Below are positions 47,446 to 52,626 of a stretch of 55,060 nt of DNA, one piece after another. The DNA lies in the NCBI GenBank assembly GCA_902799555.1, contig CADCBB010000010.1, positions 1 to 55,060 of the forward strand, read 5' to 3'. The position numbers were made by a program, and so were the translations under genes. The notes beneath the pieces were generated by a model. It did not search any database, was not told the origin of the DNA, and was given only the letters and a program-made list of their open reading frames with translations. The stretch comes from an uncultured Bacteroidales bacterium. Its GTDB lineage: Bacteria > Bacteroidota > Bacteroidia > Bacteroidales > Paludibacteraceae. The stretch's first letter is position 1. Each line of letters begins with the position of its first letter.

Positions 47446-48552
47446 TCAATCCGGAAATTCCATCAGGTACGCTTTAATAAACGCATCGATATCGCCGTCC
47501 ATCACCGCATTCACGTTGCTCGTCTGATAGTTCGTACGGTGATCCTTCACGCGTCGGTCGTCGAAGACATACGAACGGATCTGGCTTCCCCATTCGATCT
47601 TCTTCTTACCGGCTTCCACTTGTGCCTGTGCCTGACGACGTTTCTCCATCTCTAACTCGTAGAGTTGACTTCTCAAATGCCGCAAGGCATTCTCGCGGTT
47701 CTTTGGCTGGTCACGTGTCTCGGTATTCTCGATCACGATCTCGTCAGGCTGACCGGTGAGCGGATTGACGAACTTATAATGCAGACGTACGCCGGACTCG
47801 ACCTTGTTGACGTTCTGACCGCCGGCGCCGGAAGAGCGGAAGGTATCCCAACTGATACCGGCCGGGTTCACCTCCACTTCGATCGTATCGTCGATGAGCG
47901 GCACCACGAACACGGATGCAAAACTCGTCATTCGTTTGCCCTGCGCGTTGTACGGGCTGACACGCACGAGACGGTGTACGCCGTTCTCGCTCTTCAGATA
48001 GCCGTACGCCATGTCGCCTTCGATATTGAACGTCACGGTTTTGATGCCCGCTTCGTCACCTTCCTGCAGGTTCTCGATCGTCACTTTATAATCGTGTTTC
48101 TCGCAGTACCGCATGTACATACGCATCAACTGTTCCGCCCAGTCTTGGGCCTCCGTGCCACCGGCACCGGACACGATCTTCAGTACCGCCGGCATCTGGT
48201 CCTCTTCGTGCGAAAGCATGTTCCTCATCTCCAGGTCCTCTTCCTCTTTCAGCGCCTTGGCATAAGCGGCATCGACCTCTTCTTCGGTCACTAACTCCTC
48301 TTTGTAGTAGTCAAACGCCAACGCCAACTCTTCTACCGCTGCGCGTACGCCTTCGTACCCTTCGATCCAGCGTTTGATACCCTTCACTTTACGCATCTGT
48401 GCCTCGGCGGCCTTGGCATCGTCCCAGAATCCGGGTACTTGCGTATGCAGCTCTTCCTCTTCGAGTTGAATCCGTTTCTCGTCGATCTGCAGATACGCTT
48501 TTAACTTATCCGCCCGTTGCTGTACATCTTTTAATTGCTCTATCGTGATCAT
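47446..48552 (-). CDS. prfB: Peptide chain release factor 2
   Basis: Ends translation at UGA and UAA. The catalytic GGQ is in SSGAGGQNVNKVESG near residue 245. The stop-codon-reading motif is SPY (RVSPYNAQGKR) where many RF2 proteins have SPF. Length 368 residues. No internal UGA frameshift site is needed: the frame is open from MITIEQLKDVQ to the end, so the well-known RF2 autoregulatory frameshift is absent here. The start at 48552 is the family start; upstream frame is leader. Confidence 0.94.
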   Translation of the reverse strand: MITIEQLKDVQQRADKLKAYLQIDEKRIQLEEEELHTQVPGFWDDAKAAEAQMRKVKGIKRWIEGYEGVRAAVEELALAFDYYKEELVTEEEVDAAYAKALKEEEDLEMRNMLSHEEDQMPAVLKIVSGAGGTEAQDWAEQLMRMYMRYCEKHDYKVTIENLQEGDEAGIKTVTFNIEGDMAYGYLKSENGVHRLVRVSPYNAQGKRMTSFASVFVVPLIDDTIEVEVNPAGISWDTFRSSGAGGQNVNKVESGVRLHYKFVNPLTGQPDEIVIENTETRDQPKNRENALRHLRSQLYELEMEKRRQAQAQVEAGKKKIEWGSQIRSYVFDDRRVKDHRTNYQTSNVNAVMDGDIDAFIKAYLMEFPD

Positions 48553-48584
48553 AAGCCTATAATTTGCCAATTTAAAATCGGCTG

Positions 48585-48616
48585 CAAAATTACAAAAAAA
48601 TAATGACATACACAAG
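48585..48616 (-). promoter_or_regulatory. prfB promoter
   Basis: Minus strand: CTTGTGTATGTC (48616-48605), 12 nt, TAATTTTG (48592-48585), then CA. The GC-rich block directly upstream matches the one before the tlpA promoter. Confidence 0.8.
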
Positions 48617-48662
48617 CCCGCGCGCGATTTTTCTTCTTTTTTTTAATTTGCATCGGCTGCTA

Positions 48663-48920
48663 GGTGGCTCGGGCATAGGCAGATTAGCCCCTCGCCGTCA
48701 GCTCTCCACGAGCTGACATTCCTGGCTTGCGGAGCGTCCCTCGTCTTTGTATCATGCCCTACCATGCTACAAACGCCGAGGGCCTGCCCGCTCCGCAAGC
48801 CCCCATGCGGCGTGTATGTGCCATCGGTTGGTTTTGGCAAGTACATCATTTCATGATGTGAAGAAACGTTTTTTTGTTGTTTATGGGGTATCTCTATGGC
48901 GCGCGCGCCGCCCGCCGCCA
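48663..48920 (+). repeat. Intergenic repeat, copy A, carrying an insertion
   Basis: Outer parts (48663-48681 and 48840-48920) match copy B at 49493-49591: GGTGGCTCGG, CATAGGCA, AAGTACATCATTTCATGATG, GAAGAAACG, TTTGTTGTTTA and GCGCGCGCCGCCCGCCGC. The hairpin ACATCAT-TTC-ATGATGT is preserved in both copies. Small minus-strand frames in A and B share a peptide, but I see no start or codon signal and treat the unit as non-coding. Confidence 0.75.
48682..48839 (+). mobile_element. 158-nt structured insertion with GGCA target duplication
   Basis: Present in copy A but absent from copy B. It is flanked by GGCA at 48678-48681 and 48836-48839. Inside, GTCAGCTC pairs with GAGCTGAC (48697-48717). A long nested hairpin is formed by GGCTTGCGGAGC (48724-48735) with GCTCCGCAAGCC (48790-48801), CCCTCG with CGAGGG, and TTTGTA with TACAAA. 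No coding frame. It looks like a MITE-sized element or RNA gene. Confidence 0.55.
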
Positions 48921-48983
48921 AAAAAAGGACAACGACTCGTGTCATTATCCTTTATTCAACACGAATTTTTGTGTGAAAGTTGG

Positions 48984-49400
48984 TTACAAACTCTCTCCGT
49001 GTTCTATAGTCACCTCGTTGTGTTTAAATGAAGTAACTTTTATATAATATGAAGGATTGCTGTCTTTATTCAAAACAGGAGGGATCAAGAATAAGCACTT
49101 GGGACCTGTAGAATATGTATTTTGCATACGATACAAAGGTATCAGTTCATTGACCGTCCAATAATATGTGTAACTACTGCTAAAAGCACTCATTTTAACT
49201 ACAACTTTAACGGTCTTTTCATCAATTTTGTATATTTCGGTGATTTTACCTATAGGGTAACTAGTGCTGGCGTAGTTCTCATGCGGATAGATTAAACCAG
49301 CTTGTGGCAGAGCAAAATCGCTACCAGTTTTAAGAACGAGATTAAGTGCAAAGCTACTAGCAGAAAAGCACACGAAGATAAACAAGATTAACTTTCTCAT
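48984..49400 (-). CDS. Small secreted protein of unknown function
   Basis: 138 residues: signal peptide MRKLILFIFVCFSASSFA, then a beta-rich domain with many Tyr, Ser and Thr (SSSYTYYWTVNEL near 80). No family recognised. A/T content is higher than in the neighbouring genes, which suggests recent gain. It has its own promoter and is bracketed by the two direct copies of the intergenic repeat, so the gene could have been moved together with them. Confidence 0.75.
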   Translation of the reverse strand: MRKLILFIFVCFSASSFALNLVLKTGSDFALPQAGLIYPHENYASTSYPIGKITEIYKIDEKTVKVVVKMSAFSSSYTYYWTVNELIPLYRMQNTYSTGPKCLFLIPPVLNKDSNPSYYIKVTSFKHNEVTIEHGESL

Positions 49401-49426
49401 AGTATTAAAATTTTAAAATTGCGCTG

Positions 49427-49458
49427 CAAAATTACTACTTTTTTCTGACATATGCAAG
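49427..49458 (-). promoter_or_regulatory. Promoter of the small secreted protein gene
   Basis: Minus strand: CTTGCATATGTC (49458-49447), 12 nt, TAATTTTG (49434-49427), then CA. Confidence 0.8.
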
Positions 49459-49492
49459 CCTGAGTGAATTTTTTTATTACATTTGCCGCGTA

Positions 49493-49591
49493 GGGTGGCT
49501 CGGACATAGGCAAGTACATCATTTTATGATGTGAAGAAACGTCCTTTTGTTGTTTAGGGGGAATAGATATGCTGCGCGCGCCGCCCGCCGC
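49493..49591 (+). repeat. Intergenic repeat, copy B (empty site)
   Basis: Same unit as copy A but without the 158-nt insertion: CATAGGCA joins directly to AGTACATCATTTTATGATG. Direct orientation relative to copy A, about 0.8 kb apart. Confidence 0.8.
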
Positions 49592-49610
49592 ATTTTTTTT
49601 CTCCAAAACT

Positions 49611-49642
49611 CTTGCATAATTCGTAAAAAAGCAGTACCTTTG
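49611..49642 (+). promoter_or_regulatory. Promoter of the RAYT gene
   Basis: CTTGCATAATTC (49611-49622), 12 nt, TACCTTTG (49635-49642). The -7 box lies in an inverted repeat ACCTTTGC-AGCC-GCAAAGGT. Confidence 0.8.
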
Positions 49643-49901
49643 CAGCCGCAAAGGTTAGAACAACGAAAAAATGATGAACAGTGCAATGTTCCTTGCTGCA
49701 TAACAAAGAATCTTATAATGTGCTGATAATTAAAATATTATAGCATTTGATATGCCAATTTGGCATCACGAAAAAATGAAAAATAGAATGTTCAATTTTA
49801 CAATTCGTTAAACGAGTAAAAGAGGCATGCGACAAGTACGATGTAAGTTACAACCTTGTTTTAAAACCATCGTATATATAGTCAAATAATAATAACAATC
49901 T
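49643..49901 (+). promoter_or_regulatory. Long leader of the RAYT gene
   Basis: About 250 nt without a substantial gene. It contains GAACA-N6-TGTTC (49676-49691), the palindrome ATGCCAATTTGGCAT (49752-49766), and the 12-nt direct repeat ACGAAAAAATGA at 49663 and 49768. Each repeat copy holds the ATG of a micro-ORF: 49671-49703 (10 codons) and 49776-49811 (11 codons). Confidence 0.5.
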
Positions 49902-51032
49902 ATGCCCGAACGTATTCTCACCGATAAAGGATGGAGATATAAGCAACAGAAAGTCCACCTCCTTCGTGCTAAATGGCACGACTACTTCTCTCCATCTGTT
50001 TACATGTTGACACTGACCTCCGTTAACCGTGAGCCTATATTCGGACAATTGATAGGAGATACTCAAAATCCTGTCATATCCCTCTCTTCCATCGGCCGAA
50101 TGGTGGCTGAACAAATCGAACTAATACACACTTACAAGGGCTTTGATAAAACAGAGGTGTTCTCCTCTGTCGTCATGCCCGACCATGTACACATTCTCTT
50201 ATACGTCCGCCAACAATTGCAGCACCCCCTTGGCTATTATGTCAGTTGGTTTAAAAAGCAATGTAGCGACCATGCGCGAGGACTTAACCTCGCGAGCACA
50301 ACCGTCTCTTCCTCGTTTGGCCCAGCTCTCGGCGCTAACTCGCCGAGCTCTGGTTCTGCTCTCGCGGCTAATTCCGCGAGCAAAGCCCCTCTCGTCTTTG
50401 CCCCGGAATATCACGACCGCATCCTTACCCAACAGGGCCAACTGGATAACCTCAAGCAATACATTCTCGACAACCCCAGACGCCTAGCGCTCAAACGTGC
50501 TAACCCCGAACTATTCCGCTTGCATCAAAATATGGATATTTCCAACCTTACCTTCACAGCCTTAGGAAACCTCTTTTTGATCAATTATCCTCTCAAACAA
50601 ATGCTCCAATGCTCGCGCTCGCTCTCCCAAAACGATATCGACTCCCTCCGTGAACAATGCCTTACTCTTGCGGATAATGGCGTTGTCTTTATCTCTGCAG
50701 GTATCTCCGAGGGGGAAAAACAAATATGCCGTGCGCTCCGAGAAAATGGCTTCCCGCTTATCATCATTCTCAAAGATGGTTTTCCTAAACCCGATGACCC
50801 GCACTATAAATTCTTCAAGCCTTCCGGTGCCTATTTCGAGGCATGTGCTGAGGGACAATTACTACTATTAGAACCACAATCCGATGTCTTTCTCCAATCC
50901 CGCATCGCCCAACCTATCTTACAAAAACACCCGCAACTTCCGCACGATTCTATGCGCTTTCGCTTCTTGGCTCTTAATGAAATGGCTCGTATTCTCCAAT
51001 ACGAGACTAATTGGTCCTGCTCGCGCGGTTAA
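49902..51032 (+). CDS. REP-associated tyrosine transposase fused to a DprA/SLOG-like domain
   Basis: 376 residues. Residues 1-200 are a Y1/RAYT transposase: MLTLTSVNR near 35, HUH motif MPDHVHILL (His95, His97), and EYHDRILTQQGQLDNLKQYI with the likely catalytic Tyr170, then DNPRRL. Residues about 215-345 look like a DprA/SLOG Rossmann domain: LQCSRSLSQ, GVVFISAGISEGEKQICRAL and FPLIIILKDGFPKP. RAYTs act on REP hairpins as single-stranded DNA. Three hairpins lie in frame at residues 125-160, between HUH and Tyr, coding an Ala/Ser-rich linker. The stop TAA (51030-51032) is in the loop of a fourth hairpin. A long structured leader precedes the gene. Confidence 0.82.
   Translation: MPERILTDKGWRYKQQKVHLLRAKWHDYFSPSVYMLTLTSVNREPIFGQLIGDTQNPVISLSSIGRMVAEQIELIHTYKGFDKTEVFSSVVMPDHVHILLYVRQQLQHPLGYYVSWFKKQCSDHARGLNLASTTVSSSFGPALGANSPSSGSALAANSASKAPLVFAPEYHDRILTQQGQLDNLKQYILDNPRRLALKRANPELFRLHQNMDISNLTFTALGNLFLINYPLKQMLQCSRSLSQNDIDSLREQCLTLADNGVVFISAGISEGEKQICRALRENGFPLIIILKDGFPKPDDPHYKFFKPSGAYFEACAEGQLLLLEPQSDVFLQSRIAQPILQKHPQLPHDSMRFRFLALNEMARILQYETNWSCSRG
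50274..50381 (+). repeat. Three REP-like hairpins inside the RAYT gene
   Basis: Stems: CGCGAGG/CCTCGCG (50275-50294), CTCGGCG/CGCCGAG (50328-50347), CTCGCGG/CCGCGAG (50361-50380). Each has a 7-bp stem and a 6-nt loop rich in TAA (ACTTAA, CTAACT, CTAATT). Hairpin 3 is preceded by GGTTCTGCT, as are the downstream copies. Confidence 0.85.
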
Positions 51033-51145
51033 TTCCGTGCGCTTCGGTTCTGCTCGCGGCGTTAACTCGCCGCGCTTCGGTTCTGCTCGCGGCGTTAACT
51101 CGCCGCGCGCTTCGGTTCTGCTCGCGGCGTTAACTCGCCGCGCTA
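51019..51145 (+). repeat. Tandem REP-like hairpin array at the end of the RAYT gene
   Basis: Four hairpins with starts near 51023, 51055, 51088 and 51123 (spacing 33-35 nt). The last three have identical CGCGGCG stems with loop TTAACT; the first has one G-T mismatch and loop TTAATT. GGTTCTGCT precedes each of the last three. The loop of the first contains the RAYT stop codon. Confidence 0.9.
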
Positions 51146-51172
51146 TTATAATAACAACAAAATTAAACTATT

Positions 51173-51503
51173 ATGACAAAAAAAATGTGAGACCAACCAT
51201 CTGGTCATTGATCTTTATGTTCATCTCCTCTCTGATGAACCACAAATCGTAAAACCATCCCTCTTCTGCCGTATTACTGAGCAAGCCCTCACAGAAGGTC
51301 GCGCACAAGTAGTAGAGGAAGAGTTGCGTCGCGCTTGTATTAGTGCCCCGAAACTAACAAAGGCCATTCGTACCAATGAAGCACTTGGCTATCTGGACAC
51401 CCGGAATCTTAGTTCAAAAGATCTGTACGACCTTCTGAATGAACATTTTCGTCTGCCTTTCGGCCGACACAACTTCACCGTTTATCGCAGTAAGATTCAT
51501 TGA
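51173..51503 (+). pseudogene. Frameshifted or slippage-dependent island gene
   Basis: An ATG at 51173 (Met-Thr-Lys-Lys) leads into a run of eight A (51178-51185), then TGA. In the frame that would follow seven A, an open frame of 105 codons runs to 51503, encoding ETNHLVIDLYVHLL, then APKLTKAIRTNEALGYLD and DLYDLLNEHFRLPFGR, clearly protein-like. No other start codon suits that frame. Either the gene is broken by one base, the base call is wrong, or slippage on the A-run produces the protein. Family unknown; a small helical island protein. Confidence 0.6.
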
Positions 51504-51570
51504 CTTTGATGTATCTCTAAAGGTCTGTCTTTGACTTTTTATTGACATTTTCCGTCTTCTATTGACATTC

Positions 51571-51600
51571 GGAGTCCGTATCCCGCGGACTCCTTTTTTT
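51571..51600 (+). terminator. Terminator ahead of the right HNH gene
   Basis: GGAGTCCG pairs with CGGACTCC, loop of 7 nt, followed by seven T. Upstream, TTGAC occurs at 51531, 51542 and 51562. Confidence 0.85.
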
Positions 51601-51605
51601 ATCCC

Positions 51606-51613
51606 TACCTTTG
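51606..51613 (+). promoter_or_regulatory. -7 box of the right island promoter
   Basis: TACCTTTG followed by CA, about 50 nt before the HNH start. No TTTGCATAT partner is visible at the usual 24 nt, because the terminator stem occupies that place. Confidence 0.55.
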
Positions 51614-51662
51614 CATCGGATTTGAGTTGTAGCAACGTCGCTGCACTAAAGATCCGTGCATT

Positions 51663-52208
51663 ATGAGTCATAAACAAACAAAACCCACACGACTCTGGTT
51701 CTTAGCCAGAGGTTTCAAACAAGCCGACCCATGCCACACCGGCGGCAAGATTGTCTGGCTGCATCCCGAAAACAATGATGTGCTTAGTGCGTATGGTACA
51801 AAATTGACACTTACAAAGGTGCCTTACGAGAAGTATCACAAAAACGCGACACAGTATCTAAAAATGCCTAGAGGTTATGGTGACATGTACCTCGCCCGCC
51901 TTAAGTATCTCACCTTCGTTGGTCCGATCCCAAAAGGTTGCGTTATCGATCATATCGACGGCAATTCCCTCAACAACAGCCCTCGAAACCTCCGTGCAAT
52001 ACCTCGCCCTATTAACGATCGGGACGGCGGCTTTTTGCGTAAACTCCGTAACCACGGCATAAACGTCGCAGATTACGAGATTTCCTTTATCCTCGAAGGT
52101 TACGAGCGCCTTGCCCTTTGGAAAGCGGGACACTCGCACAACAAATACAGTCTTCTTGAACGCGATGCCCTCTTACGGATTTTTTTAGGAAAGGAGGACG
52201 TGCAATGA
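51663..52208 (+). CDS. HNH endonuclease-like protein, right island
   Basis: 181 residues. HNH_3-type motif IPKGCVIDHIDGNSLNNSPRNLRAIP near residue 90 followed by NDRDGGFLRKLRNHGIN. It is homologous to the left-island protein at 1966-2589 over the HNH core and following helix; N-termini differ. The next gene starts within its stop (ATGA), so it belongs to the island operon. Confidence 0.82.
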   Translation: MSHKQTKPTRLWFLARGFKQADPCHTGGKIVWLHPENNDVLSAYGTKLTLTKVPYEKYHKNATQYLKMPRGYGDMYLARLKYLTFVGPIPKGCVIDHIDGNSLNNSPRNLRAIPRPINDRDGGFLRKLRNHGINVADYEISFILEGYERLALWKAGHSHNKYSLLERDALLRIFLGKEDVQ

Positions 52209-52354
52209 ATAACAGTGATATTTATGATGCTTTCGATAGTCTCACCCCGAAAGACAAAGCGCTCTTCATCGATGCACGCCTCGCCTGGGCTTCCGGCGGC
52301 GCTCTCTGCGGTGAAGTACGTATGCGTATTTGTGAACCCTTAAACGACGAATGA
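52205..52354 (+). CDS. 49-residue island protein
   Basis: A very short gene between overlapping neighbours: ATGA overlaps on both ends are possible. The product, MNNSDIYDAFDSLTPKDKAL onward, is acidic at the start and has one helix. No family recognised. Its reality rests on the coupled starts and stops and on codon use. Confidence 0.6.
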   Translation: MNNSDIYDAFDSLTPKDKALFIDARLAWASGGALCGEVRMRICEPLNDE

Positions 52355-52626
52355 TTATGAGTATTCCCGATTTGAAAACAGCCCTCTATGAAGGCACTGT
52401 GCTCTTTGAGTTTATCAAGAAAGATGGTTCACTCCGCCATGCTCGCGGTACGACCTGTCCCGATCTTGTGCCCGCTGATGACACGCCCAAAGGTAAGCGT
52501 ACACCGGAGCAACAGGCTCTCTATGACCGTCAGACGGTCGCTTTTTACGACATCGACAAGAAAGGTTGGCGCTCCATGCGTATCGACACTATCTGGAATT
52601 ATCAGCGTGCCCTCAAGTTATCGTAA
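52351..52626 (+). CDS. DUF2693/WYL_2-like small protein
   Basis: About 90 residues with LFEFIKKDGSLRHARGTTCPDLVPADDTPKG and FYDIDKKGWRSMRID, the pattern of the DUF2693 (WYL_2, Sm-like SH3 barrel) family common in Bacteroidales mobile regions. Function unknown; a nucleic-acid-binding barrel is likely. The start could be 52351 (ATGA overlap with the previous stop) or 52357. Confidence 0.75.
   Translation: MIMSIPDLKTALYEGTVLFEFIKKDGSLRHARGTTCPDLVPADDTPKGKRTPEQQALYDRQTVAFYDIDKKGWRSMRIDTIWNYQRALKLS

Follow-up and report, generated by a model that had tools for sequence, protein, structure and literature searches.

In-frame REP-type hairpins in the linker of RAYT genes with a DprA-like domain: a candidate cis DNA site

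Results

A RAYT gene with a DprA-like domain

The window analysed here (a stretch of 55,060 nt from an uncultured Bacteroidales bacterium) exhibits an ORF (position 49902 to 51032, forward strand, 376 amino acids) corresponding to a RAYT-type Y1 HUH transposase with a DprA-like C-terminal domain, as identified from the ORF, Pfam and NCBIfam profiles, alignment and structure prediction. Aligning 45 selected homologues, the window protein among them, shows H95, H97 and Y187 to be invariant. They correspond to the HUH motif (H95-V96-H97, 50184 to 50192, forward strand) and, by homology, to the catalytic Tyr187 (50460 to 50462, forward strand), so the sequence presents the HUH motif and single tyrosine of Y1-type RAYT/TnpAREP proteins. 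Profile matches over the first half of the protein stay below the cut-offs: Pfam Y1_Tnp has an E-value of 0.0023, and NCBIfam REP_Tyr_transpos (NF047646) scores 36.3 bits (E-value = 4.7 × 10-9) against a curated cut-off of 80. NF047646 is matched by all 45 aligned members (E-value up to 0.1). No Pfam DprA domain appeared among these 45 members, the only matches besides Y1_Tnp being two weak single-member ones (E-value = 0.02 and 0.069).

The AlphaFold model of the window protein has a mean pLDDT of 85.6 and a pTM of 0.75. A Foldseek search with it recovered the IS200/TnpAREP fold for the N-terminal part, with matches to the ISDra2 and IS608 TnpA (E-value from 7.9 × 10-6) and to the TnpAREP structure 4er8 (E-value = 3.5 × 10-4). 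It also recovered the DprA structures 5mll, 4ljr and 3uqz (best E-value = 1.6 × 10-3, probability 1.00); Foldseek gave no aligned ranges, and the placement of this resemblance on the C-terminal half (about residues 208 to 367; 50523 to 51002, forward strand) is our own assignment. The domain is called DprA-like because of this structural match, Pfam lending no support. On its motifs and predicted fold, the window protein is a RAYT with a DprA-like C-terminal domain, a fusion that would unite two domains handling single-stranded DNA (function by homology). Between a long helix (residues 110 to 138) and a strand (166 to 175) the model contains a predicted disordered linker (residues 135 to 160, pLDDT <50; 50304 to 50381, forward strand). 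The helix and the strand are named alphaC and beta4 by analogy with TnpAREP.

Three hairpins in the reading frame

A sequence-only reading of this DNA had proposed that three hairpins of the design of the downstream array lie in frame between the HUH motif and the tyrosine, without stop codons. All of this is borne out. REP1 (50275 to 50294), which reads CGCGAGG-TTAAGT-CCTCGCG on the minus strand, has the opposite orientation to the array, and REP2 (50328 to 50347; CTCGGCG-CTAACT-CGCCGAG) and REP3 (50361 to 50380; CTCGCGG-CTAATT-CCGCGAG) lie on the forward strand; each has a perfect 7-bp stem and a 6-nt loop, and all precede Tyr187 (from 50460). The reading frame of the ORF is uninterrupted across them, residues 125 to 160 being ARGLNLASTTVSSSFGPALGANSPSSGSALAANSAS. 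The array consists of four forward-strand copies, at 51022 to 51041 (with one stem mispair), 51055 to 51074, 51088 to 51107 and 51123 to 51142; the loop of the first supplies the TAA stop codon of the ORF (51030 to 51032). No REP was found upstream of the gene: outside the ORF there is the downstream array only, and the inverted copy sits inside the linker. Linker and array share head, stem and loop. The 9 nt located 5' of the stem are GGTTGTGCT (complement of 50295 to 50303), GGCCCAGCT (50319 to 50327) and GGTTCTGCT (50352 to 50360) for REP1 to REP3, versus GGTYCTGCT in the array, and the loops read in REP orientation are TTAAGT, CTAACT and CTAATT in the linker versus TTAATT and TTAACT in the array.

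A chance origin of the three stems is ruled out: among 20,000 synonymous codon shuffles, three non-overlapping stems of at least 7 bp arose in none, two in 4 and one in 499. Folded as single-stranded DNA, the linker has a z-score of -4.54, with none of 200 shuffles equally stable, and the downstream array one of -3.93.

In the host genome (86% complete), a search with the REP pattern allowing at most one mismatch gave 14 sites, 7 at the RAYT locus and 7 elsewhere. The linker and array copies share a 5' head close to GGTYCTGCT. Six of the 7 non-locus sites bear this head or a close variant; the seventh (L089, contig C15) is headless and probably a chance match. Cognate REPs are thus present elsewhere in the genome, as for other RAYTs, at low copy number; a dispersed high-copy family was not seen. 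In two other genomes, a REP pattern has 7 sites in G003, all at the RAYT locus, and 47 in G077, where a nine-REP array with 43-44-nt spacing (L225, G077:C3:2310-2677) lies about 6.8 kb from a RAYT match on the same contig. One of the six head-bearing sites outside the host's RAYT locus (L077, G000:C6:26663-26682), a window-type REP, is read in frame close to the start of a 451-aa ORF at its N-terminal end, apparently within a signal peptide; by eye, this ORF resembles an outer-membrane protein. Another repeat, about 90 nt long and judged by eye to be unrelated to the REP, occurs in intergenic parts of the window (48838 to 48930 and 49505 to 49595); it combines a GC-rich tail with a small palindrome (acatcattt.atgatgt).

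Linker hairpins across the family

Six named records were recovered with the window protein, five titled "uncultured Bacteroidales bacterium" and one "Paludibacteraceae bacterium" (goat rumen). Matches were found in 123 of 178 genomes of the genus (E-value 10-8), and family-profile matches in 37 of 393 genomes drawn evenly from the order (E-value 10-20), about half of the order-wide matches spanning the catalytic part only. From 185 profile hits we removed 19 duplicates and one sequence lacking the motif; a 95% filter then removed 12 near-identical sequences from the remaining 165, leaving 153 genes, whose loci were chosen among the matches listed and lean to closer relatives.

The sequence-only reading had left it to homologues to decide whether the hairpin segment is peculiar to this gene. 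Most of the relatives sampled keep a linker hairpin, and its copy number varies. Of the 153 non-redundant genes, 118 have a linker stem of 7 bp or longer without mispairs, versus a mean of 7.1 and a maximum of 15 in 200 replicates of synonymous shuffling; such a stem is present in 159 of 2293 control windows of equal length taken from other parts of the ORFs. Since the remaining 35 genes have no perfect 7-bp stem, the linker hairpin is not indispensable. Sixteen of these 35 have an 8-bp stem with one mispair (a count without chance control), and very short linkers occur among the 35 (L032, L061, L069, L033 and L157). Of 15 loci from beyond the genus that carry longer homologues, 8 (L194, L195, L197-L200, L204 and L205) show a stem of 7 bp or longer between the HUH motif and the tyrosine block, and 7 do not. 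Among close relatives, the linker copy number is three in the window gene, two in L072 and one in L071. L072, the closest relative compared (77-80% identical), has an inverted copy and a chimeric, partly unpaired one, in which the left half of REP2 is joined to the right half of REP3.

One explanation would place the constraint in the protein: the linker repeats would be kept for their peptide, and the DNA symmetry would be a by-product of tandem coding repeats. Four linkers are of the kind this explanation predicts, with tandem peptide repeats encoded by DNA without a perfect 7-bp stem (L070, L037, L022 and L017); that of L070 repeats its own flanking KLWEEGxND segment. Perfect stems in the family are, however, far above the synonymous expectation (118 versus 7.1 of 153), and differing frames and orientations yield unrelated peptides. 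All three reading phases are represented among the linker hairpins. The CCCGAAT..ATTCGGG type, found in 25 genes, occurs in two phases (encoding PNxIR or PExxSG), with at least 5 phase changes on the tree of these genes; label shuffles gave a mean of 7.5 and never fewer than 5 (200 shuffles). As the observed number equals the lowest of the shuffles, phase appears to be partly inherited. In L191 and L164, 143 of 165 C-domain residues are identical, and the hairpins are oppositely oriented (as judged by their loops) and the peptides unrelated. The varying frames and this flip indicate that DNA and peptide are decoupled, and the persistence of hairpins in relatives whose peptide has changed suggests that the DNA fold itself matters. 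Homologues conserving the linker as a protein segment over unrelated DNA would have contradicted the sequence-only reading; across the family the reverse is seen, the hairpins persisting while peptide, frame and, in one case, orientation change. Comparison across the relatives shows a foldability of the linker DNA kept far beyond what the peptide would require.

Paired changes in the F[SA]RIF hairpin

A second linker hairpin, encoding F[SA]RIF, is present in 20 genes sharing a Y-H-E-R-type motif. In this one clade the short peptide is conserved too, yet the DNA stem covaries. Three of its 8 base pairs vary (GC/TA; TA/CG/GC; CG/TA); the two arms change together except in a single gene, which has a T-G pair. 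Three other pairs are broken in one gene each; 4 of the 20 genes have one non-Watson-Crick pair. Among the 11 distinct rows, the number of cells changed on both sides is 15 versus a shuffled mean of 6.0, and the covariation score is 0.427 versus 0.148; neither value was reached in 500 shuffles, and slid structures score 0.016-0.109. The number of pairs with both-side changes (3 versus 2.5; 278 of 500 shuffles) and the number of pair types (5 versus 4.5; 287 of 500) are not above shuffles. These shuffle statistics (five measures) ignore relatedness. By parsimony the three varying pairs have undergone 3, 6 and 5 changes (left arm 3, 6 and 4; right arm 3, 6 and 5) in a set with a mean protein identity of 58%.

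Every varying pair has one base at a third codon position, and the coupling joins this position to the first position of a different codon (CGT with ACG, CGC with GCG). Such coupling is unexpected under protein constraint. Given this covariation, the explanation by the protein-level linker seems very improbable; peptide conservation as the cause is ruled out by the synonymous shuffles, the phase variation and the L191/L164 flip. In the model of L009 the F[SA]RIF segment (residues 149 to 156) is of low confidence (block means 49 and 56) and without regular structure, and the conserved peptide may therefore itself be a by-product of the DNA. The DNA fold seems to be maintained.

Repeated replacement from other copies is disfavoured by the rarity of such copies. 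In 8 chosen genomes the F[SA]RIF pattern (loop TNTT) has 9 sites, one of them in the RAYT gene of each genome; the RAYT copy is the sole copy found in 7 of the 8, the extra site being in G181. An exact second copy lies within the fetched locus of only one of the 20 genes. The extra G181 site (L313, G181:C27:18905-18924) is outside any detected RAYT ORF, in a short open frame reading FARIFAS, possibly a relic.

DNA or RNA

Transcription of the gene would include the hairpins, and the maintained pairing of the F[SA]RIF stem would also suit an RNA structure. Control at the mRNA level, by a translation pause, RNA stability or binding of the RAYT to its own message, is thus an alternative, and the last of these was part of the sequence-only reading. 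Single mispairs in the imperfect 8-bp stems comprise 7 G-U, 8 A-C and 6 others (a small, partly overlapping sample without chance control). No G-U excess, and so no sign of RNA-specific selection, is seen among them. No Rfam family matched positions 48500 to 52500 at gathering scores. The opposite orientation in the close pair L191/L164 alters the RNA loop and argues against an RNA or loop-specific site. Mispairs and flip together mildly disfavour the mRNA site, and with the Rfam result they weigh weakly against any RNA role of the hairpins; we regard mRNA-level control as improbable.

Copies in flanks and in other genes

A comparison of linker stems with the gene's own flanks (within 700 nt) and ORF ends found there, for 52 of 111 genes, a hairpin of equal loop length whose inner 6 bp are identical to those of a linker stem. 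Permutation gave a mean of 4.5 (maximum 13), or 12.3 (maximum 20) when performed within loop-length classes. An exact own-flank match is absent in the other 59 genes, 24 of which score 0, and this weakens the rule that the linker always carries the current REP. Per kb, the linker has 8.88 hairpins, against 4.49 in the C-terminal tail, 2.70 in the N-terminal part, 2.06 upstream, 1.47 downstream and 0.69 and 0.41 in the two core segments.

Searching 8 chosen genomes for the CCCGMATNNNATKCGGG pattern gave 22 sites, two of the genomes having none; by coordinates, 12 belong to RAYT linkers, 6 to the tails or flanks of RAYT genes and 4 to other places. A survey of intragenic REPs yielded 92 distinct sites, 26 at RAYT loci (22 in flanks, 4 in the ORF) and 66 elsewhere. 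The latter divide into 23 intergenic sites, 23 at ORF edges and 20 inside ORFs of at least 150 aa, such ORFs covering 82% of the stretches surveyed. Nine of these 20 lie in one probably spurious ORF spanning an array, and about 7 are in what look by eye like real genes. REPs of the ATCCGCCA type are read inside other apparent genes at L256, L268, L300, L289, L305 and L291, these ORFs including a methylase-like and a MazG-like one (names by eye).

These distributions bear on a neutral explanation, in which REPs mobilised by the RAYT often insert close to where they came from, while tolerance of them is limited to the flexible linker and the two tails. The linker hairpins would then be passengers, refreshed by new insertions or by exchange with flanking copies. 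The predicted disorder of the linker, the dense hairpins in both tails and the flanks, the variable copy number in close relatives, the 52 own-flank matches and the in-frame REPs of a few other apparent genes are all as this explanation would have it. Against it, the F[SA]RIF hairpin changes mostly in pairs at one orthologous site, and a second copy able to refresh it was found in one of 8 genomes (loop TNTT only) and one of 20 loci; hairpins are also denser in the linker than in flanks or tails, and the CCCGMATNNNATKCGGG sites are mostly in RAYT linkers (12 of 22). We consider neutral insertion somewhat unlikely, and rank it second.

Discussion

Our best estimate, to which we give a probability of roughly 0.55, is that the hairpins of these RAYT genes are a maintained cis DNA site, the gene being a cis target of its own product. 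The RAYT carries hairpins of its own REP type, in frame, in the segment encoding the disordered alphaC-beta4 loop. They would have entered as REP DNA, into a loop that probably tolerates almost any peptide. The RAYT may recognise these hairpins when they fold in single-stranded DNA of the gene that encodes it, an occasion that replication of the lagging strand could offer; such recognition would make the gene a cis target of its product. The outcome could be self-limitation or cis-tethering, each RAYT staying physically linked to the REP it reads. The sequence-only reading had suggested that a transposase carrying its target in its own coding region could act on its own gene; this is plausible, and the comparison of relatives strengthens it. 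More tentatively, RAYT-DprA genes may keep a cognate folded-DNA site in the coding sequence of their catalytic domain under base-pairing selection, with the hairpin dictating synonymous as well as amino-acid changes and the transposase reading and controlling its own gene through it; two RAYT lineages would do so in two loops.

Within this large family, most of the members sampled have the hairpin, in varied frames and orientations, and one clade exhibits mostly compensatory coding changes. On these grounds the family offers a testable example of a coding sequence shaped by the folding of its DNA, with bearing on the matching of RAYTs to REPs and on the persistence of domesticated transposases.

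Comparison with known systems

In-frame REPs within a RAYT gene are already in print, as they have been reported for RAYT subclass 2.4 (Quentin et al. 2018, PMC6006769). In the accessible part of that account, subclass 2.4 is abundant in Cyanobacteria and Bacteroidetes, has REPs inserted without frame disruption, generally between HuH and Y, and is characterised by NH[IFV]H, WQ, YIxNNP, an insertion located between beta3 and alphaC and a core without extension; its variable region is suggested to have little impact on activity. The window family resembles it in the in-frame REPs between HUH and Tyr, a feature of the window gene itself, in the REPs flanking the gene and in the variable linker. 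It differs in its PDHxH and Y..DNPRR motifs, alphaC-beta4 insertion and DprA-like domain. The window protein has PDHVH, no WQ, YILDNPRR and an extension, and its disorder comes after helix 110 to 138 and before strand 166 to 175, not between beta3 and alphaC. Membership of subclass 2.4 is ruled out on motifs, size and insertion site. Where in-frame REPs have been suggested to matter little for the protein, we find here signs of a maintained DNA fold. Short RAYTs from our order search (L210-L222, n = 13), which we place by eye next to subclass 2.4, have a hairpin of at least 7 bp after HUH and before Tyr in 8 cases (L213, L215-L219, L221 and L222), 4 of them with GTAG near the base.

Subclasses 2.2 and 2.6 share the alphaC-beta4 site with the window family, having short insertions there, and the consulted part of their description mentions no in-gene REP (PMC6006769). 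Subclass 2.6, described there as mostly from Bacteroidetes and flanked by atypical secondary structures, has NH[LIV]H, WQ, YIH[QN]NP and a median length of 179 aa; with PDHVH, no WQ, YILDNPRR and 376 aa including the DprA-like domain, the window protein is excluded from it on motifs and size. Among the open-licence papers listed, titles and abstract openings showed no compensatory evolution of in-gene REPs; our searches of that literature likewise found no alphaC-beta4 site carrying REPs and no DprA fused to a RAYT, a DprA/HUH/SLOG match concerning jumbo phages.

The E. coli TnpAREP and the Stenotrophomonas RAYTs share the Y1 HUH fold and the association with REPs (PMC2817692, PMC8266576). According to the parts of these sources available, which do not mention in-gene REPs for either, the REPs of these RAYTs carry a GT[AG]G head and often exceed 100 copies per genome; the window REP has a head of about GGTYCTGCT and about 13 sites. 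REPs have been reported within many other genes (partial text of PMC3733652). Such intragenic REPs and the Rickettsia palindromic elements are, as far as these partly seen accounts go, also palindromes read in frame, but are spread over many unrelated genes; the hairpins of the window family, in contrast, are concentrated at one RAYT loop and exhibit signs of compensatory evolution.
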